IMG/VR virus record: IMGVR_UViG_3300045973_001497
Location: 1 to 41,018 of that record
Reading direction: 5' to 3' (one strand)
Length of the DNA: 41,018 bases
Source of the DNA: a virus
The notes beneath the pieces were generated by a model, which did not search any database, was not told the origin of the DNA, and saw only the letters and a program-made list of their open reading frames with translations. The position numbers and the translations under genes are program-made. Of the stretch, positions 3,567-17,015 are shown one piece after another (the stretch's first letter is position 1; each line of letters starts with the position of its first letter).

Positions 3567-5692
3567 GCTGTCACCAGTACTTTCCGTACACCACGTTCAT
3601 CGCAAGCGGTAACCTTGCCCGCTGCTTCAAGCTTGGCCATGATGTCTAGGGCTTTGGTGGTGCCAACTTTTAACTCGGACTTGAGCAACCGCACGTTGGC
3701 TTTTTGCTCGCGTTTGATGATGTGCACGGCTGCGTTGAACAGGTGTATGTCATCTACCAAGCTAGACACTCGCACCTGCTGGTCGGTGGACGACGCATCA
3801 GCGGCGTCTGTGGGGCGGCAGTCCGCCCCACCATCGTTGCTATGCGCGTCAGCGCCTGTTATTTCTTCCGATCGGCGAGCCGAATCGGAAGCTTCGTCAC
3901 TTTGCATCGCGGCAGCGATGCCTAGCATTGCCTCCTCAGCACGTAGCTTGGGCTTCAGCGCGCGCAGCGGGGATTTTTGTTTTTTACTTTCCCCCGCACC
4001 CCCGTTCGCTTGCGCAGCGGGGGCGGTCGCGGCGGAGGCTTTTTGCGCGTTGCTTTGCTTCAGCTCGGCTTTCAGGCGCTTCAATTCGGCGGCGACTTCG
4101 GCTTTTACTTCGGATGCCGCAGCTTTTTCGATAGCTACGGTATCAATCGCTAAGTTTGCAGCCATTGCATCGGCGATGAGTTGATTTGGTTGGTTAGCGT
4201 ACATGTTGTCATCGTTCAGCATGAAGCGTGCAAGCGCACGATGCAGCGCGGCATTGCTACATGCACGCACATGCATGGACACTGTGGTTCCCGGATCTTC
4301 GCCAAGAGATTCGGGTGACATATCAAACCAACTAGCCGTGTCGTCAGCGTCGATATAGCCGGGCATGGTTTCAAACCAAGCCCGCAGCACTGCTGCTGGC
4401 AAAAGCTGCTGCGCTTCTTTGTCTGTAGTCGCTCGTATCGCATCGATCACGGCGTTGTGCTTGGCCTTGAATTGCGCTCTGGCTGTTTTTACTTTGACTT
4501 GCTCTTGCAGGCGCTGAATTTCTTCTTCAATGTCTTCTTGCTTCTCGGTAGATTTGATCAGCCCCTTGGCCAGCAGCAGCGCTTCGGCTTCTTCGGTGGG
4601 CACGGCCTCGATCAGCTCTTTTGTGTGTGGGTTTTCAATCAGCACAGGGCTTGGTGCATCTTTGCCAAGCAAGTCGCGCAGGGTAAGCTTTTCGTCATCG
4701 TTACCCGTGCAGTCGTTGCGCACTTGACCAAGTGCGCTGTAGCCATGCATTGAACTATTGACATGCGGGAAAACTTCTTTGGCTTCTTTCCCCTCTATAA
4801 CCCGCATGCCCTTGGCCTCCGCTTTGGTTACCAGCGTAGCGCGGTGCGCATCCACTTTGCCGTGGTAGCAAGTGGGGTCAGTGCAGATGTCTGCACCCAC
4901 CACATCGGCAAACAGGTCGGGGTTGGCACCGGTGCGTTTGGGGCAGTCTTTGCAGCTGCCAGCTGCTGGCACCAGCCGCGCATCAGTTGTTTTAAAAGGG
5001 GCGTTTTCTAAACGGAGCATCACATTGCTTTGCAGCCATGCTTGCAGGGCACGCACGCTGCACACATCACCACGCCAGTCTGGCTTTGTGGCTTCTTCCA
5101 GCGCTTTGGCTTGCAGTTTGGCGTCGGGTATGCGGGCAATCAAAATGGCGCGGCTGGAGTCGATCTTGCCTTCACGCATGGCTTGCTTGCACTCGCTAGA
5201 GAGGTCGAGCAGCTTCAAGCGTGCATATACGTAGCTGCGGCTTTTACCTATTTTCTCGCCTAGTGTGTCGGCGTTGATGCTGCTGTGCTGCATCAGCTGT
5301 GCGTAGCCCTCAGCCTCTTCAATCTCCGTCAAGTCTTCGCGTTGCAGGTTTTCAATCAGCTGAATTTCTAGCACCTGGTCGTCTGTCAGCTGGCGAATCA
5401 TGGTGGGGATGGTTGTTTTCATTGCAAGCCCGCTGGCACGGTAACGGCGTTCGCCACACACCAGTTCATGCGTGGGGCGCACTTTGCGAATGCGACCATC
5501 GCAGGTGGTGGTCGTGCTGGTTTCTTCTACCCGATCAGCAGGCAGTGGACGCACAAGGATGGGCTGATGCATCTCGGTAAGTTTGATACTCTCAGACAGC
5601 TCTAAGAGCTTGGCATGGTCGAAGTGCGTGCGCGGGTTGGTCTTACTGGGGACGATGCAATCGAGATCGAGAAATGCGAAGTGATCAGACAT
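3563..5692 (-). CDS. ParB/Spo0J-family protein with C-terminal FtsK-gamma-like winged helix
   Basis: 709-aa protein; ATG at 5692 is chosen because CCGGAGAG lies just upstream, although the frame stays open further. Residues ~5-125 form a ParB N-terminal domain with the CTP-binding motif GERRYRA (80-86) and ENLQRED (114-120); a helix-turn-helix follows at ~140-165. A four-cysteine cluster (CKDCPKRTG, then CTDPTC) may bind zinc. A coiled coil (EDIEEEIQRLQEQ) and a low-complexity Ala/Lys linker come next. The last ~65 residues (DIHLFNAAVHIIKREQKAN to GVRKVLV) match the winged-helix pattern of the FtsK gamma domain. Family knowledge: ParB proteins bind parS and clamp DNA with CTP. There is no parA in the window, so plasmid-like partition is doubtful; transcriptional or replication control is equally possible. 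The preceding gene overlaps its start by 8 nt. Confidence 0.85.
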   Translation of the reverse strand: MSDHFAFLDLDCIVPSKTNPRTHFDHAKLLELSESIKLTEMHQPILVRPLPADRVEETSTTTTCDGRIRKVRPTHELVCGERRYRASGLAMKTTIPTMIRQLTDDQVLEIQLIENLQREDLTEIEEAEGYAQLMQHSSINADTLGEKIGKSRSYVYARLKLLDLSSECKQAMREGKIDSSRAILIARIPDAKLQAKALEEATKPDWRGDVCSVRALQAWLQSNVMLRLENAPFKTTDARLVPAAGSCKDCPKRTGANPDLFADVVGADICTDPTCYHGKVDAHRATLVTKAEAKGMRVIEGKEAKEVFPHVNSSMHGYSALGQVRNDCTGNDDEKLTLRDLLGKDAPSPVLIENPHTKELIEAVPTEEAEALLLAKGLIKSTEKQEDIEEEIQRLQEQVKVKTARAQFKAKHNAVIDAIRATTDKEAQQLLPAAVLRAWFETMPGYIDADDTASWFDMSPESLGEDPGTTVSMHVRACSNAALHRALARFMLNDDNMYANQPNQLIADAMAANLAIDTVAIEKAAASEVKAEVAAELKRLKAELKQSNAQKASAATAPAAQANGGAGESKKQKSPLRALKPKLRAEEAMLGIAAAMQSDEASDSARRSEEITGADAHSNDGGADCRPTDAADASSTDQQVRVSSLVDDIHLFNAAVHIIKREQKANVRLLKSELKVGTTKALDIMAKLEAAGKVTACDERGVRKVLVTA

Positions 5693-6100: not shown

Positions 6101-6465
6101 AGCAGCGCTCCTTGTCTGAGTTGGTCTGGGTCTTCTGGCGGATCTATTGGTTCGAGGTCGATAGAGTTCGCATTTGTCGCAACCAGCTTCAGGCCCACGA
6201 GTGGCGCCTGAACAGTTATGCAGCAACCGCGTCGAAGGGCTTTGGCATGTTTTTCTGCCAGTGCATGTTGGTCGGACTTATATGCATGCTCAGCTCTAAC
6301 GGGCATGTGCGAGCTGCTGTCGGTAGTGAACTCGACGCACAATACGGGAACGGTATGGCCATCGCCATCTAATACCTTGTTGCGCACTTCGGCATTCCGT
6401 ATGAGCGTGCCACGCAGAACCATGTCTGCGGTCACGCGGCGTGGGTGTTGATCGATGGTGTGCAT
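6097..6465 (-). CDS. OB-fold-like protein, possible ssDNA-binding protein
   Basis: 122-aa protein with the strand pattern of a small OB fold, similar in layout to PriB/SSB: ADMVLRGTLIRNAEVRN (strand 1-2), VPVLCVEFTTD (strand 3), a helix (DQHALAEKHAKAL), then CITVQAPLVGLKLVATNAN and IDLEPI (strands 4-5). Its place among replication and recombination-type early genes fits a single-strand DNA-binding role. This is a fold-level inference, with no specific catalytic motif to confirm it. Start and stop overlap the neighbours by 1 and 4 nt. Confidence 0.5.
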   Translation of the reverse strand: MHTIDQHPRRVTADMVLRGTLIRNAEVRNKVLDGDGHTVPVLCVEFTTDSSSHMPVRAEHAYKSDQHALAEKHAKALRRGCCITVQAPLVGLKLVATNANSIDLEPIDPPEDPDQLRQGALL

Positions 6466-7268
6466 TACGTGCCCACCTTTTCTGCGGCCTCTGCAAGAAG
6501 CTGCTCACGATTTTTTGACAACCACTTGATGTTCGGCTGTTGTGTAACTTGAATAGCAACAAATCGATGGTGTGGATATCGAACTTGGGTTGTGCTTGAA
6601 GTTCCAACAAAGATAGGAAGTGCACCTTGCTTAGCTTCTAGGCTAGTCAAATAACTTTTAAGCGACACAAGCTCGCTTGTAGTCATTGAGTCAATTTCAG
6701 CAACTTCCTTGAGCCATGCATTGGTTGAGTTGTCTGCGATTGCATCGTCAGAAAAATGGTCGCCAGCTAATACCCTTAGAAGCGTCGATTTGCGCAAACC
6801 TTGTCGGCCACAAAAAACAATAACTTTTTCTTGAATGAAAGGTTTGCCTTGCATTCGTTTGGCGATGGCCAGTAAAAGCACAGTGCCATATTTGGCTAGC
6901 GGTGGTGTGTTGACTTTCCCGAGTACGGTTGCAAGCCAGTTGTGCAAGCGTGGCACGCCATCCCATTTGATGTTGGTGTTCATTTCTGTAGCTGTTGAGA
7001 TTGGCGCTGCTGCACAGGCAGGGCAAGGGCCAAACTCGGCTGAATAGGGTATGCGCATGCGCCCACGTCCACCGCATTCTTTGCATTCAGTGATGGGTGA
7101 CAGAGCATCCTCATCCCACCACGCGTTGCAAGCGCGGCCACCGGCCGCTTGGTATTGCAGCCAATAGCTGTTGGCTGAGTTTGTGTACTCAGTGCGCCCT
7201 TTAACTGTGCCGCGCTCGCCGCTGGAGGTGATGGCTACTGGTTGGTTAAGTTCATATTTGAATGTCAT
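6465..7268 (-). CDS. Compact VapE-like P-loop ATPase with zinc finger
   Basis: 267-aa protein with two parts. Residues ~60-85 hold a DnaJ-type CxxCxGxG-like zinc site (CKECGGRGRM, then CPACAA). From ~100 on there is a minimal VapE (virulence-associated E) ATPase core: the domain-opening WDGVPRL, Walker A GRQGLRKST, a Walker B-like region with EVAEIDSM, and an HHRFVAIQV segment at the place where full-length VapE has DRRFWPLEV. It is much shorter than the 792-aa VapE helicase on the other strand and lacks a primase domain. VapE proteins are usually replicative helicases of phages and satellites; whether this one unwinds DNA, regulates, or interferes with other elements is unknown. ATGA overlap with the upstream gene. 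Confidence 0.75.
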   Translation of the reverse strand: MTFKYELNQPVAITSSGERGTVKGRTEYTNSANSYWLQYQAAGGRACNAWWDEDALSPITECKECGGRGRMRIPYSAEFGPCPACAAAPISTATEMNTNIKWDGVPRLHNWLATVLGKVNTPPLAKYGTVLLLAIAKRMQGKPFIQEKVIVFCGRQGLRKSTLLRVLAGDHFSDDAIADNSTNAWLKEVAEIDSMTTSELVSLKSYLTSLEAKQGALPIFVGTSSTTQVRYPHHRFVAIQVTQQPNIKWLSKNREQLLAEAAEKVGT

Positions 7269-9770: not shown

Positions 9771-9829
9771 TGTCATTTTTTTTGTCTATTTGAGCCACAC
9801 AACGGCTCTCAACAATGTTGCGAGGTGTC

Positions 9830-10198
9830 ATGAACCAAGTCTCTTTACCTATTGATGTGTCGCCTAAAGAGGTAGCACGCAAGCGCACGCTGGGCGATTC
9901 GCTGGCTATGTGCGCCGAGTTGGCGGGGTTCACTTTTGACAAAGAGTTGCAGCGCCAACTGGGCGTTGACAAGGCGCAGTTCAGTCGCTGGATGTCAGGC
10001 ACCGAGGGCATTGTGTGGCCTAAGTTTTCGGCTTTGATGGATGCGTGCGGTAACGACGCACCGCTGTTTTGGATGCTGCACCAGCGTGGCTACGATTTGG
10101 AGTCGGTGCGAAAGCTAGAAACCGAGACGCAAAAAGAAAACCGCCTGTTGCGTCAACAGGTGGATTCACTTCGGTTCTTGTTGATGGGGGCTAAGTGA
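9830..10198 (+). CDS. CII-like transcriptional activator
   Basis: 122-aa protein; ATG at 9830 follows GAGGTG at good spacing, preferred over the upstream ATG at 9815. The helix-turn-helix reads LQRQLGVDKAQFSRW, followed by WPKFSALMDAC, closely matching the lambda CII pattern (GVDKSQISRW ... PKFSMLL). A C-terminal coiled-coil segment (ETQKENRLLRQQVDSL) could mediate oligomerisation. In lambda, CII activates repressor and integrase promoters during lysogenisation; the position between Cro-like and replication genes is the same here. Its stop overlaps the next ATG (TGATG). Confidence 0.65.
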   Translation: MNQVSLPIDVSPKEVARKRTLGDSLAMCAELAGFTFDKELQRQLGVDKAQFSRWMSGTEGIVWPKFSALMDACGNDAPLFWMLHQRGYDLESVRKLETETQKENRLLRQQVDSLRFLLMGAK

Positions 10199-10502: not shown

Positions 10503-12881
10503 ATGAGCGATAAACAAACCCCGGTGGTGGTGCCTCCGGTTTGGGACAGTATCCCCGCAGAGCTGGCGAATCGCCAGCAGTGGGTGCTATGGAAGTTCGA
10601 GCATAAAGAAGGCTCAGCCAAGCCTGCCAAGGTGCCTTACTACGTGATGGGTGGGCGCCGCACGGGCGGTCAGGGTGAAGATCGTGATCGTCAGCGCCTT
10701 GCTACTTTAGCTGTAGTGCGCCGTGCGTATGAGCGCGGCGGCTGGTCGGGCATAGGTTTTGGATTTTTGCCCGATGACGGTTTGATTGGCATCGACATCG
10801 ATGGCGCGATTGACCTAGCTACTGGCGAGGTGAGTGAGCGTTGTGCAAGCATCATCAAGGCGGCGGGCAGCTTCACAGAATACTCGGTGAGTGGCAAGGG
10901 TGTGCACATCATCGTGCACGGTAAGACCGATACCAACAAGTTCAATGACATTGGCTTAGAGGTGTTTTGTGGGTCTCAATTTTTCATATTCACTGGCAAG
11001 CACTACCCCGAAACGCCAACTGAAGTTTTACCGATTGATGAAGATGTACTTAAACGTCTGCACAAAACGATTGACGACGCCAAAGAGGCGGCACGCATCA
11101 AACGCCACCCACCCGCAACAGCCAAACTACCTACGGCTAAACCAGCGGTGGCGCAAGACGGTAGCGATGATTTCAAGCATGTCAACGAAGTGGCGATGTT
11201 GTCGCTGCAGGCGTGGGTGCCTTCATTGTTTCCGTCTGCGCTGCAAAAAGGGCAGGGGTTTAGGGTCAGTAGTAAGTCGCTGAATCGCCAGCTGCAAGAA
11301 GACCTAAGCATCATGCCCGAGGGTATTGTGGACTTCGGTGTTGCCGACATGGGCGACCCCAAGCAAGGCAAGCGCACGCCAATTGACTTGGTGATGGAGT
11401 GGTTGCCCACGGCTAAACCCGGAGAGGCTCTGCATTGGCTTGCGCAGAGGGTTGGTGTTGAGTTGACCAAGCCCGCGCAGAAAAATCAAAAACCACCTCG
11501 CGCGATCGCTCCGGCTCCCGCTGGGGATGCTGATAACGCGCAAGATGACGGTGTTGAGTTTGTTGATGTGATTGAGCGTTTGGTGCTGCACCGTGGACGT
11601 CCGATGGACTGCCGCGAAAACGTCATGTACTGCTTGCAGCTTGACCCCACGCTCAAAGATTTGGTCAAGCAAAACGACTTCACCCACCTGATCGAGCGCA
11701 GTCGTACCACCCCATGGGGCCATCCAGCGGGAGATTGGAATGAGGAAGACGATTTGATGCTGGGTGAGTACCTGTTGCGCTCGTATGGCATGAGTGTCAA
11801 GGCCACAAGCACCCTGCGTAACGGCGTGCTCATGGCGGCGCGGTCATCAAAGTACAACCCTGTGCTAGACCTGATTCATTCTCAAAAATGGGATAGTGTG
11901 GATAGGCTTGAGCATTGGCTCACCGATGTGTACGAGGTTGAAGATCGGCCCTACACGCGTTTGATTGGCAAGTGTTTCATCATGGGCTTGGTAAAACGCG
12001 CGTTGCAACCTGGTTGCAAGTTCGACTACATGCTCATCATCAAGGGTGAGCAGGGTTTGAAGAAGTCCACGGCTTTTCGTGCGCTGGCGTATCCGTTTTT
12101 CACTGACAACGCCATCCGAATGGGTGACAAAGATTCGCTCATGGCTATGCAGCTGGTGTGGATTGCGGAGTCTGCTGAACTTGAGTCGCTCAACAAATCA
12201 GAGACGACGCAGATTAAGCAATTCTTGTCTGCGCAAGAGGACATGTTTCGCCCACCATACGGTTCGCAGCTCATTCGCGCCAAGCGACATAGTGTGAACG
12301 TGGGCACCACCAACGCTGACGAATTTTTGAAAGACGCCACAGGTGACCGACGCTTTTGGCCGCTTGAAGTGAAGGTGGTTAACGAAGATCTATTGGCGGG
12401 TATGCGCTTGCAGCTCTTCGCCGAGGCGCTGCACCGGCTCAATGCGGGTGAACCGTATTGGCCCAACAAAGAGCAAGAGAAAACGCTGGTGTTTCCCGAG
12501 CAGGCCCCGTTCAAGCGCACCGACACATGGGAAGACATCATCGATGCGTATGTCAATCGCGATTTGCCTGATAAGCATGACGACCCTAATTCACCTGTGA
12601 ACGCGAAGCGCGATTTCTTTAGTCGCGCCGAAATTTATGAGCGGGCTTTGCTCATCAAAGCAGATCGTATCGACGGTGCGGGCAACATGGATACGCGCAT
12701 TGGTAATGCCATGCGCATGTTGGGCTTTGACAAGCATCGGCAAACAACGGGTAAACGGACGCGCGGCTTTCTGCGACGTCCCCCGCTGCCCCCATTGGCA
12801 ACGCCTGAAAACGGGCCTGTCGACATGAATGAGGCCCACAGCGGCCCCGAAGCGAGTGAGGACGATGACTTACCGCTGTAA
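10503..12881 (+). CDS. Primase-polymerase/VapE-type replicative helicase
   Basis: 792-aa two-domain replication protein. Residues ~10-200 look like an archaeo-eukaryotic primase-type domain: GFLPDDGLIGIDIDGA with D98-I-D100 as metal ligands, then YSVSGKGVHIIVHGK. After a linker, the VapE (D5-like SF3-type) ATPase starts at QKWDSVDRLEHWL (~460), with Walker A GEQGLKKS (515-522), a Walker B region LVWIAESAEL, and GTTNADEFLKD leading to GDRRFWP (614-620). It would prime and unwind phage DNA in the host cytoplasm. It is followed directly by the repeat cluster taken as the origin. Confidence 0.88.
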   Translation: MSDKQTPVVVPPVWDSIPAELANRQQWVLWKFEHKEGSAKPAKVPYYVMGGRRTGGQGEDRDRQRLATLAVVRRAYERGGWSGIGFGFLPDDGLIGIDIDGAIDLATGEVSERCASIIKAAGSFTEYSVSGKGVHIIVHGKTDTNKFNDIGLEVFCGSQFFIFTGKHYPETPTEVLPIDEDVLKRLHKTIDDAKEAARIKRHPPATAKLPTAKPAVAQDGSDDFKHVNEVAMLSLQAWVPSLFPSALQKGQGFRVSSKSLNRQLQEDLSIMPEGIVDFGVADMGDPKQGKRTPIDLVMEWLPTAKPGEALHWLAQRVGVELTKPAQKNQKPPRAIAPAPAGDADNAQDDGVEFVDVIERLVLHRGRPMDCRENVMYCLQLDPTLKDLVKQNDFTHLIERSRTTPWGHPAGDWNEEDDLMLGEYLLRSYGMSVKATSTLRNGVLMAARSSKYNPVLDLIHSQKWDSVDRLEHWLTDVYEVEDRPYTRLIGKCFIMGLVKRALQPGCKFDYMLIIKGEQGLKKSTAFRALAYPFFTDNAIRMGDKDSLMAMQLVWIAESAELESLNKSETTQIKQFLSAQEDMFRPPYGSQLIRAKRHSVNVGTTNADEFLKDATGDRRFWPLEVKVVNEDLLAGMRLQLFAEALHRLNAGEPYWPNKEQEKTLVFPEQAPFKRTDTWEDIIDAYVNRDLPDKHDDPNSPVNAKRDFFSRAEIYERALLIKADRIDGAGNMDTRIGNAMRMLGFDKHRQTTGKRTRGFLRRPPLPPLATPENGPVDMNEAHSGPEASEDDDLPL

Positions 12882-12984
12882 CCCCTTTCTACGCAACGTA
12901 GCGGCTTTTGGTGGCTTTTGGATGCCACGCTGGTTGGTCACGCCCCGACGTCATGTCGGTCCTGTCGCCACCGCCTTCCAATCC

Positions 12985-13242
12985 GTCCACCGCGTCCACC
13001 CCCCGTCCATGGGGGGTGGACGCCGTAAGCTGTTGATTTTGTTTAGAAAACTTCCATCCGTCCACCCGTCCACCCCCTCAGGCACCTTTCTCATACGTGC
13101 ACACGTATGCACGGGGGCGCGTGTCTGCGCGCACGCGCACGGGCGCAGCTTACCTACACATAGGTGGACGGGTTGGACGGATGGACGGATTGAGTATTCA
13201 TGCGGGTTTGCGTCGTCCACCCTACGTCCACCTTGCGTCCAG
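12985..13242. repeat. Symmetric GTCCA repeat cluster, candidate replication origin
   Basis: This fills the 386-bp gene-free stretch 12882-13267. Twelve copies of GTCCA or its complement TGGAC occur: direct at 12985, 12994, 13005; inverted at 13016; direct at 13060, 13068; inverted at 13164, 13173, 13181; direct at 13215, 13226, 13237. Steps between neighbours are 8, 9 or 11 bp, close to one helical turn. GTAAGCTG (13025-13032) is mirrored by CAGCTTAC (13146-13153). The centre holds a near-palindrome, CATACGTG-CA-CACGTATG (13092-13109), and GCGCGTG/CACGCGC arms (13117-13138). Iteron clusters next to a helicase/primase gene usually mark origins; function here is inference. Confidence 0.55.
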
Positions 13243-13267
13243 TCTTTCAATTTCTTAGGAGCGAAAC

Positions 13268-13579
13268 ATGAACCAACAGCCCAGCCAGTCAGCAGCCAAG
13301 GTTGATTTGCGTCAGCATATGCCCGAAACCGCTAGGTGGGTGGCGGAAAAGCGTGTGGCGTTTGGCAAAGATTTCGTCAACGATTGCATTCGTCGTTCTT
13401 TGCAGGGTGAAGAGGGCCTGTTCTACGCGATAGAGCGCGGCCATGTACTCGGTACGCCTTTCCCAGCCACGCACATCATCGCGCATGACCAGCAGTTCGC
13501 ATTGATGACGGGCTGCTCGTTTGCCGCGTTCATGGTGGAGCCACCAAAGTCACAAGGGGCTGTCGATGGCGCGAATTGA
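13268..13579 (+). CDS. Hypothetical phage protein (103 aa)
   Basis: 103-aa protein with a clear AGGAG site before ATG 13268. Helical middle (TARWVAEKRVAFGKDFVNDC, RRSLQGEEGLFYAIERG) and a C-terminal strand-rich part (THIIAHDQQFALMTGCSFAAF). No known domain. Its position between origin and antiterminator resembles the ninX-type accessory gene region of lambdoid phages. It overlaps the next gene by 14 nt. Confidence 0.65.
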   Translation: MNQQPSQSAAKVDLRQHMPETARWVAEKRVAFGKDFVNDCIRRSLQGEEGLFYAIERGHVLGTPFPATHIIAHDQQFALMTGCSFAAFMVEPPKSQGAVDGAN

Positions 13580-14764: not shown

Positions 14765-15328
14765 ATGACTGGATCACGCGGCCCACTGCCCAAGCCTGCG
14801 GCGCTTCGAGTGTTGGAAGGTAACGCTGGAAGACGCACGTTGGATTTGTCGGCTGGGGTAAATCCGCGCATTGAAGTCCCATCGGCTCCCGGCTACCTAA
14901 GCAAGGAAGCAAAAAAAGAATGGAAGCGAATCACGCCGATCTTGGAAGAGCTTGGCTTGATTAGTGGACTTGATCGCTCGGCACTTGGAATGTATTGCCA
15001 AGCTGTTGGACGACTCACTGAGCTTGAGATGGCATTCAATGCCAAGGTCGCTCAGAAAGTCAAAGACGGCGAAGACTATTTTGAAGCCGTAGCCACCTCA
15101 AGCGAGAGCACCACACCATCGGGCTATACACAACAGAGCGTGCGCGTCCAGCTCATCAACAAGCAACGTGACCAAGTGAACCGATTGCTGATGCACTTCG
15201 GCTTGAGCCCTGCAGCGCGTGCGCGGGTTCAGGCATCCAACTATGTTGATCCAACGATGACCTTGCCGGGCTTTGAGCAGGCGCCAGAGGTGAAATCTGG
15301 CTTCCAAAAGTTCCGAAGAGTCGTATAA
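14765..15328 (+). CDS. terS: Terminase small subunit, P27 family
   Basis: 187-aa DNA-recognition subunit of the packaging motor. Diagnostic start TGSRGPLPKPAALRVLEGN, then the conserved helical pattern YLSKEAKKEWKRITPILEEL and GLDRSALGMYCQAVGRL, and a C-terminal LINKQRDQVNRLLMHFGLSP. This is the normal P27-type organisation. It binds cos-proximal DNA and hands it to TerL. The gene is four bases before terL. Confidence 0.93.
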   Translation: MTGSRGPLPKPAALRVLEGNAGRRTLDLSAGVNPRIEVPSAPGYLSKEAKKEWKRITPILEELGLISGLDRSALGMYCQAVGRLTELEMAFNAKVAQKVKDGEDYFEAVATSSESTTPSGYTQQSVRVQLINKQRDQVNRLLMHFGLSPAARARVQASNYVDPTMTLPGFEQAPEVKSGFQKFRRVV

Positions 15329-15332
15329 AACT

Positions 15333-17015
15333 ATGAATCGGTATGTTGAATTGGCACTTGGCTACGCCAATGACGTGCTTGATGGCAAGATTTTGGCGTG
15401 CAAGTGGGTCAAGTTTGCTTGCGAAAGACAGCTAAATGATTTGAAAAAAGATCAGTCTGACGACTGGCCTTGGGTGTTCGATGCTGAAACAGCCTCGCTA
15501 CCTTGCGAATTCATTGAGATGCTGCCCCACATCAAGGGTAAATGGGCGCGTGAGTGTCGGTTAATCACTCTTGAACCATGGCAATGCTTTGTGTTGACCA
15601 CCATTTTTGGTTGGCTGCACCGCGAAACAGGCCTGCGCCGCTTCATTGAGTTTTATGAAGAGGTGCCACGCAAAAACGGCAAGAGCGCCAAGGCCTCGGG
15701 ATTGTTTTTGTACATGCTCACCGCTGATGGTGAACAAGGTGCTGAGTGTTACACCGCCGCGACAACGCGCGACCAGGCACGCATCGTTTTTGACGATGCC
15801 AAGGCAATGGCCGAGCGAACACCAGCGCTGCGCTCTGACTTGGGCCTCGCCATCATGAAGCACAGCCTTATTGTTGCCAGCACAGCCAGCAAAGGTGCGC
15901 CTTTGGCTGCTGAGGCGTCAACTCAAGACGGTTTAAATGTGCACTTTGCCATGCTCGATGAGCTGCATGCGCACAAGAAACGCGACCTTTATGACGTGAT
16001 TGACACCGCACGTGGTGCCCGTGAGCAGTCGATGCTTGGAACGATTACCACGGCGGGAACGGATCGCTCTGGCATTTGCTACGAGCGCCGCACGCACATC
16101 ACCAAAATTTTGAGTGGAATCATTCGTGATGACCGTGTTTTTGGAATTATTTACACGATTGACGATGAGGATGATTACTTTGACCCACTGAGCTGGGCTA
16201 AGGCGAATCCAAATTACGGCATTTCGGTGATGCCCGACTACATTGCTGCCTCGGCAAAAAAAGCGGAGGCAATGCCTTCGGCACTCAACAACTTTTTGAC
16301 CAAGCATTTGAATGTTTGGGTATCGGGTGAAAGCGCATGGATGGACATGCGTGCGTGGGAGCGCTGCGCTGATGCGAAGCTGCGCGACTTGCCTGAGTTC
16401 TTCGGTGCAAGGGCTTGGATTGGCCTTGACCTCGCTCAAAAGAAAGACTTTGCGGCGCTTTGCATCGTGTTTGAGCATGGCGGCAAATGGAATGTGTGCA
16501 CACGGCTGTACTTGAATGAGCTTGCTATTCAAGAAAGCGGCAACGCACATTTGACCGGCTGGGCCCGTCAAGACTTTGTGCAGGTGACGGATGGCGACAT
16601 CACCGACTTTGATGTGGTGGCTGACGACTTGCGCATGCTTTGCCGCCATTTTGACGTGCAAGAAATCGCATTCGACCCGGCTTTGTCGATGTATTTTGCG
16701 AGCAAGTTGATTGAAGAGGGGTTGCCGTTGGTGGAAATCACGCAGCGCTCAACATTTTTCACGCCCGCATTGATTCAAGTTGAAAACTTGGTGCTGGAGG
16801 GAAAACTCAAGCATGACGGCAACCCTGTGATGTCTTGGATGGTGAGCAATCTGGTGGTGAAGGTCAGCAAGTTCAACGAGTTGATGAGTCCCACGAAAGA
16901 GAGACCTGAAAACAAGATAGACGGACCGATCGCCATGTTGATGGCTTTGGGTCGCGCGCTGCAACCCAGTGACCAAGTGGTGATTGGTGACGACTACGAA
17001 ATGGTGGCCCTGTAA
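15333..17015 (+). CDS. terL: Terminase large subunit
   Basis: 560-aa packaging ATPase/nuclease of the HK97 (Terminase_1) type. Walker A-like VPRKNGKS at 111-118, Walker B MLDE at 207-210 followed by HAH, then a C-terminal RNase H-like nuclease domain beginning around WIGLDLAQKKDFAAL (~369-383; Asp as metal ligand). The length is normal for the family. Its stop overlaps the portal ATG by one base (TAATG). Confidence 0.96.
   Translation: MNRYVELALGYANDVLDGKILACKWVKFACERQLNDLKKDQSDDWPWVFDAETASLPCEFIEMLPHIKGKWARECRLITLEPWQCFVLTTIFGWLHRETGLRRFIEFYEEVPRKNGKSAKASGLFLYMLTADGEQGAECYTAATTRDQARIVFDDAKAMAERTPALRSDLGLAIMKHSLIVASTASKGAPLAAEASTQDGLNVHFAMLDELHAHKKRDLYDVIDTARGAREQSMLGTITTAGTDRSGICYERRTHITKILSGIIRDDRVFGIIYTIDDEDDYFDPLSWAKANPNYGISVMPDYIAASAKKAEAMPSALNNFLTKHLNVWVSGESAWMDMRAWERCADAKLRDLPEFFGARAWIGLDLAQKKDFAALCIVFEHGGKWNVCTRLYLNELAIQESGNAHLTGWARQDFVQVTDGDITDFDVVADDLRMLCRHFDVQEIAFDPALSMYFASKLIEEGLPLVEITQRSTFFTPALIQVENLVLEGKLKHDGNPVMSWMVSNLVVKVSKFNELMSPTKERPENKIDGPIAMLMALGRALQPSDQVVIGDDYEMVAL

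Follow-up and report, generated by a model that had tools for sequence, protein, structure and literature searches.

Our analysis indicates that the region directly downstream of the VapE-type primase-helicase gene, in a 41,018-nt stretch of viral DNA (the window), is very probably the replication origin of a temperate phage, with the phage's own VapE protein as its initiator. On the best reading of this region, its array of short repeats would be an origin of the SaPI/PICI Rep type placed in a complete phage and bound by VapE hexamers through their C-terminal winged helix. A candidate phage origin had been proposed here from the letters of the window, and that proposal is now well supported because the array follows VapE across divergent lineages, its repeated word tracks the helicase/C-terminal part of that protein, an IHF site is conserved, and the helicase is homologous to PriRep1, the self-loading protein that binds SaPI origins. 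The kind of origin is known from SaPI/PICI and SCCmec helicases that act on short downstream iterons, and the window holds a phage variant of it. Beyond the earlier sequence-only reading, we describe the IHF site, a covarying RNA at 12920-12977 and a centre of alternating purines and pyrimidines.

Results

The repeat array and its setting

The window belongs to a temperate phage and encodes an integrase, repressor, terminase, portal, tape measure and tip protein J; its structural genes set it apart from PICI satellites, which have no capsid or tail genes of their own and depend on a helper. Directly after the VapE stop begins a gap of 386 bp (12882-13267), the largest gene-free stretch among the open reading frames that we judged plausible, the runner-up measuring 254 bp. 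Twelve exact copies of GTCCA/TGGAC lie in it at 12985-13241 (Table 1). The sequence-only reading had reported twelve such repeats, grouped direct-inverted-direct-inverted-direct at steps of 8, 9 or 11 bp, in the largest gene-free stretch immediately after the primase/VapE helicase; the exact positions bear this out, with the last copy ending at 13241 rather than 13242 and the inverted copy at 13017 following after a step of 12 bp. Among 100 first-order (dinucleotide) random sequences of whole-window length, copies of GTCCA/TGGAC never exceeded 6 within any 257 bp, nor did those of any single 5-mer exceed 11. The last two copies of group 1 (13005 on the plus and 13017 on the minus strand) form a hairpin that is conserved in relatives. 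GC skew has no inflection at the array and was uninformative as an origin marker, and blastn of the array region against annotated phages gave no match.

Table 1. Positions of the array, its component sites and neighbouring genes in the window
Feature	Position	Strand	Remarks
ParB-FtsK-gamma protein, 759 aa	3563-5842	-	ParB N-terminal and HTH domains fused to FtsK-gamma
HTH protein	9815-10198		
VapE-type primase-helicase, 792 aa	10503-12881	+	Pfam PF05272 (E=3e-69), phrog_15962
Module A, structured RNA	12920-12977	+	conserved stem with internal loops and a variable hairpin
Iteron group 1	12985-13021		GTCCA (+) at 12985, 12994, 13005; TGGAC (-) at 13017
IHF consensus site	13026-13038	-	TAAGCTGTTGATT = YAANNNNTTGATW, perfect consensus
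AT-rich stretch between groups 1 and 2	13033-13056		25% GC, in a gap of 60% GC
Iteron group 2	13060-13072	+	direct pair at 13060, 13068; step 8 bp
Central spacer	13073-13164		65% GC; alternating purine-pyrimidine tract 13091-13113 and conserved GGGCGCGTGTCTGCGCGC core
Central palindrome CATACGT-gcac-ACGTATG	13091-13108		not GC-rich
Central palindrome TGCGCGCACGCGCA	13126-13139		
Iteron group 3	13165-13186	-	three inverted copies at 13165, 13174, 13182
Iteron group 4	13215-13241	+	three direct copies at 13215, 13226, 13237; steps 11 bp
Next gene, 103 aa	13268-13579	+	no Pfam or PHROG match
Terminase	14765-17015		1.5 kb downstream of the array

Conservation in close relatives

A search with the VapE protein yielded 19 loci, among them a Variovorax (L017) and an Acidovorax (L019) prophage, and later scans enlarged the clade to about 30 members with primases 56-95% identical, the relatives being mostly uncultivated or prophage sequences. 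In all of these roughly 30 members the array directly follows VapE in the same order. The steps within group 1 are 8-10, 10-11 and 12-15 bp; some 42 bp separate it from group 2, which has a step of 8 bp, about 100-120 bp lead on to group 3 and about 32 bp to group 4. Most relatives have two copies in group 3, against three in the window, and the arrays of two loci are degenerate (L093, 5 hexamer copies, p=0.10) or weak (L006, p=0.02). A comparison of relatives for repeats that are conserved while the surrounding bases change had been suggested as a check on the origin, and an alignment of 33 sequences gave this pattern: the mean major-allele frequency is 0.96 in group 2, the most conserved block of the region, 0.87-0.88 in groups 1 and 3 and 0.78 in group 4, compared with 0.45 in the 26 bp that follow the array, and the iterons are better conserved than most spacers. 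The gene after the array begins with a related ORF start across the clade of the window and is a different gene in distant VapE lineages.

One relative, L027 (positions 1-400), has GCCCA/TGGGC at 9 of 11 homologous sites, by our own count on the sequence, with module A, the IHF site and the central hairpin still aligning. Such a concerted change of word is expected of sites that are read by one protein. The VapE gene of L027 lies beyond the contig edge, and we found no second genome with the GCCCA word that retains VapE.

The IHF site, the AT-rich stretch and the centre

When the 400 bp after VapE were scanned, a perfect IHF consensus was present at the corresponding place in 18 of 26 relatives (the window counted) and in 4 of 537 control windows of equal length. 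The AT-rich stretch that overlaps this site is a candidate melting site. GTAAGCTG (13025-13032) and CAGCTTAC (13146-13153), which had been described as mirrored, are indeed exact complements in the window. Among relatives the left arm is mostly GCAAGYTG and the right arm remains CAGCTTAC or CAGCTCAC; we rejected the pair as a functional mirror since it is not conserved and its left arm belongs to the IHF site. Both of the central palindromes that had been called GC-rich exist, though the one at 13091-13108 does not fit that description. Most relatives have a central hairpin, GCAGACACG...CGTGTCTGC, whose 5' arm has been lost in the window.

Across VapE loci, the longest alternating purine-pyrimidine run after the gene exceeded all same-locus controls in 34 of 97, against about 2.5 expected, many of these loci being related; in L106 and L109 it attains 43-48 nt. 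With the loci collapsed to 27 lineages, a grouping of our own choice, and compared with dinucleotide shuffles, the run reached p<=0.05 in 11 lineages and p<=0.01 in 7, while homopurine runs, the negative control, reached p<=0.05 in 2 of the 27. As a universal feature the tract was rejected, given its 11 of 27 lineages and the SaPI-like, Staphylococcus and Corynebacterium loci that lack it. Tracts of this type can become Z-DNA under negative supercoiling, and we speculate that the alternating centre might have a role in origin opening. Long, Z-DNA-prone alternating tracts are also central in L098, L099, L102 and L126.

A covarying RNA element between VapE and the array

Throughout the clade, the DNA that leads from the VapE stop to the first iteron holds a structured element, module A, with the consensus GGAYGCC..GC.G..GGTC[AT]CGCCCC-hairpin-GGTCCTG[TA]CGCC.CCGCC over 26 distinct relatives. 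Its stem was detected by RNAalifold. In the named structure of 26 pairs, 92.7% of cells are paired, compared with 83% when shuffled and 29-60% when slid; the structure was drawn from the same sequences, which favours it over the slid control, and the shuffle control ignores relatedness. In 15 of the 26 pairs both partners changed, with U-A in place of A-U in 8 sequences, and the covariation score was 0.267 versus 0.127. The cells outside Watson-Crick pairing comprise 103 G-U (51 of them from two nearly invariant G-U pairs) and 14 A-C, an excess which suggests that folding takes place on the plus strand, which has the sense of the primase mRNA. The variable hairpin has lengths of 11, 18, 20, 23, 29, 32 and 35 nt, and these do not go in steps of three, which argues that the element is not coding. 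The covariance model scored 64.5 bits in the window. No Rfam family matched module A at the gathering score, and a loose threshold gave only sub-threshold matches that looked like chance. Outside the clade the RNA model R1 was not sustained, its single further match among 399 genomes of the order (G447) also looking like chance, with neither flank carrying an iteron array within 1.5 kb. Module A probably tunes expression or initiation.

Another VapE lineage has in the same place an unrelated element, CCAGSGA-hairpin-SGAAAAGG, together with a second covarying hairpin. The element comprises 10 pairs with a covariation score of 0.522 versus 0.126, and its 3 G-U and 2 A-C cells clearly favour neither strand. 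The CCAGSGA motif follows the VapE stop in 19 of 55 distinct loci and occurs nowhere else in those loci. Elements of this kind lie at or just after the VapE stop in L118 (4513-4605), L106 (4312-4385) and about 17 other loci, and in the L118 group the second covarying hairpin is of the CCAGGCGCGCCTGG type. The structured elements of the other VapE lineages likewise had no Rfam match at the gathering score. A third conserved block, of the GCGGTAGCGGGGA...GCGCCTATGAC type, was seen at the same position in L128, L129, L134, L067 (VarioGold) and L068 (Aval).

The proposed initiator and the part of it that tracks the word

The VapE protein is predicted to consist of an N-terminal AEP-like primase of the NrS-1 type, an AAA+ VapE helicase and a C-terminal winged helix. 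Residues 20-174 align with the NrS-1 primase, and residues 363-749 gave a profile alignment (E=1e-85) with PDB 7pds, the SaPI PriRep1 with double-stranded DNA. The AlphaFold2 model (mean pLDDT 84, pTM 0.48) found 7pds as its top structural match in Foldseek, with a target-normalised TM-score of 0.70-0.74 and E~1e-27. The modelled C-terminus is winged-helix-like (strand 705-707, helices 708-715 and 728-739, strands 742-746 and 754-758), and this predicted domain falls in part within the profile alignment with 7pds.

A comparison of domains suggests which part of the protein goes with the word. In L057 and L058 the match to VapE of the window is confined to residues 314-771 (39% identity) and the N-terminus is different, with a DnaG-type zinc ribbon there in L105, which is on the same contig as L058; these loci retain the GTCCA core, as GTCCAAC. 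Conversely, L082 and L083 have an N-terminal primase 48-49% identical to that of the window joined to another helicase, and their words are GGCGCAACA and GGCGGAACA. The word therefore appears to go with the helicase/C-terminal half and not with the primase domain. A pattern resembling M-x-x-R-x-x-x-x-M is common to the readers of GTCCA in their likely recognition helix, a correlative observation, and is also found in some readers of other words.

Arrays and words in other VapE lineages

A 6-mer repeated beyond shuffles (p<=0.01) was present in the 500 bp after VapE in 47 of 82 loci, with words that are lineage-specific, and the remaining 35 of 82 had no repeat at that threshold in the same interval. 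Words include GTCCAAC (L101-L105 and L109), GTCCCA or GTCCCAC (L098, L106, L110 and L111) and CAGTACCCGT (L131, about 15 copies). Among the annotated phages that we examined for repeats, Corynebacterium Dina has the word TTGTCCC and Paenibacillus GIW2016 has CTGCAACA; the Streptococcus satellite Javan293 has TGCTACA. At moderate significance, we also found GGTCACCCC in Marinobacter PS3 (6/300 shuffles) and a repeat in Staphylococcus PHM (24/300 shuffles).

The cluster in the window had been read as mirror-symmetric. Its own site order does not go beyond chance, dyad symmetry as good being reached by 450/1000 shuffles, and within its clade the pairing about a centre is limited to the inner six sites and alone is not beyond chance either. 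The symmetry does hold in other lineages: the dyad of the site order is perfect in L101 (12 sites), L102 (10) and L098 (10) and almost perfect in L131 (12 of 13 sites), and 0/1000 shuffles reached it in each case. The word for each locus, in this as in the recognition-helix comparison, was chosen by us. We read the dyad symmetry as suggesting two oppositely oriented helicase rings, by analogy with SaPI Rep. In the 500 bp after VapE of L145 the repeat word is CTGTTCAC, which we take to resemble the type I iteron of P4 alpha.

Discussion

The sequences themselves show the array, its conservation, its co-variation with the helicase/C-terminal part of VapE, the IHF consensus and the covariation of the RNA. 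That VapE binds and loads as hexamers, that the duplex melts here, which way replication runs and what the RNA does are parts of a mechanism that we infer. VapE subunits would recognise (C)GTCCA iterons through the C-terminal winged helix, and the oppositely oriented inner groups 2 and 3 would seed one helicase hexamer each, by which, we propose, two rings would load in opposite directions. IHF bound at its site may bend the DNA next to the AT-rich stretch, so that the sites of groups 1 and 2 are bridged and the duplex melts, and the primase domain would then lay primers for bidirectional (theta) replication. More tentatively, we suggest that VapE replicons could have a third component, a structured RNA (or single-stranded DNA) between the primase-helicase stop and the iterons, of unrelated sequence in different lineages, that would act in starting replication or in copy control; combined with an alternating centre sensitive to supercoiling, it might form a new phage origin switch.

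Other functions could be imagined for such repeats. They might be operators for a transcription regulator, for example the HTH protein nearby, controlling the downstream genes in whose leader they are located. However, 12700-13500 contains no sigma-70 promoter-like site, the word follows the VapE helicase/C-terminus though the downstream genes differ among lineages, and the number of sites (10-13), the arrangement retained where the word changes, the dyad order and the IHF site are all features typical of origins; we consider an operator array unlikely by a wide measure. We consider it highly improbable that the inverted GTCCA/TGGAC copies are not protein sites but stems within a single large RNA. 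The inverted copies could pair, the hairpin of group 1 is conserved, and a covarying RNA lies directly upstream, but many copies are direct and without a fixed partner, the word of L027 switches in all groups together, the spacing at which copies of both orientations recur is roughly helical (8-11, 32-34 and 42 bp), and Rfam offers no match.

The presence of a ParB-like protein in 11/11 relatives with long records, and of a terminase so close downstream, would suit a centromere (parS) for the ParB-FtsK-gamma protein or a cosB/pac site for packaging. Sites of the parS type are usually longer palindromes, though, and the same type of array follows VapE in other neighbourhoods (Javan293, Paenibacillus GIW2016 and Marinobacter PS3), with words that track VapE, which leaves this explanation a very slight chance. 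The reading that we prefer is the VapE-dependent origin. Weighing against it are the GC skew, the GC-rich centre, the site order of the window itself and the 35 of 82 VapE loci that had no repeat at p<=0.01.

The short unit and mirror symmetry had been thought to match no known family, a view that does not stand, since the Rep origins of SaPI, PICI and SCCmec are arrays of short iterons directly 3' of the helicase gene (PMC7581432, PMC6092414). The SCCmec iteron has 5 nt, with three AAGTG copies downstream of cch2; binding by the Rep C-terminal domain to iterons just 3' of its own gene is stated for SaPI and was shown for SCCmec Cch2, and two hexamers of SaPI Rep appear to bind the SaPI origin (PMC7581432). 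PICI origins have been described with an AT-rich centre, and a rep-ori plasmid maintenance test has been published for a Gram-negative PICI (PMC6092414).

With the origins of SaPIbov1, SaPI5 and EcCICFT073, the window shares the position directly 3' of a VapE-like self-loading helicase gene (VapE stop at 12881 and first iteron at 12985, and likewise in close relatives), multiple short lineage-specific iterons, C-terminal recognition, which for the window is predicted, and a helicase homologous to PriRep1 (7pds), its VapE/PriRep initiator class being assigned by homology only. It differs in belonging to a complete phage rather than a satellite, in having four iteron groups instead of two sets, in its GC-rich alternating centre with the AT-rich stretch off-centre, and in its IHF site and adjacent structured RNA. 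The putative SCCmec cch2 origin likewise has 5-nt iterons right downstream of the helicase gene, which in SCCmec are bound by the C-terminal domain; however, it has only three of them, a separate primase, and a helicase of the Primase_Cterm/D5 type rather than the VapE family.

Among more distant systems, the alpha protein of satellite P4 joins primase and helicase in one chain and reads short iterons with its C-terminus, and the P4 origin needs the distant crr; the P4 protein belongs to another branch, and the word of the window is GTCCA. The origins of iteron plasmids such as RK2, R6K, P1 and pSC101 resemble the window in that they combine repeated sites for the initiator with an IHF site close to AT-rich DNA. 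Those plasmids have 17-22 bp iterons, initiators of the RepA/Pi/TrfA type and DnaA boxes, whereas the conserved word of the window has 5-8 bp and the DnaA box TTWTNCACA is absent from 12882-13267. The ssi hairpins of RSF1010, recognised by the RepB' primase, act as single-stranded DNA; as hairpins beside iterons in a replicon with its own primase they may be an analogue of module A, although G-U pairs are tolerated on just one strand of module A, and this suggests RNA. Our literature search found no description of this phage variant in open-access papers, and with subscription literature outside its scope a prior description is possible.

VapE proteins are widespread in phages, yet they are still named after virulence. 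With gene, putative site and a table of words per lineage together, the recognition code of the C-terminal winged helix becomes directly testable, and the adjacent covarying RNAs, absent from Rfam, could reveal a control layer of phage replication. On the repressor side (6465-7268, minus strand) the window also encodes a truncated VapE-like protein of 267 aa, with the Walker A motif GRQGLRKST and neither a primase domain nor a C-terminal winged helix. A counterpart is encoded in the L009 record, also on the minus strand (4684-5256). The truncated protein could be a dominant-negative regulator or an exclusion factor for VapE replication.
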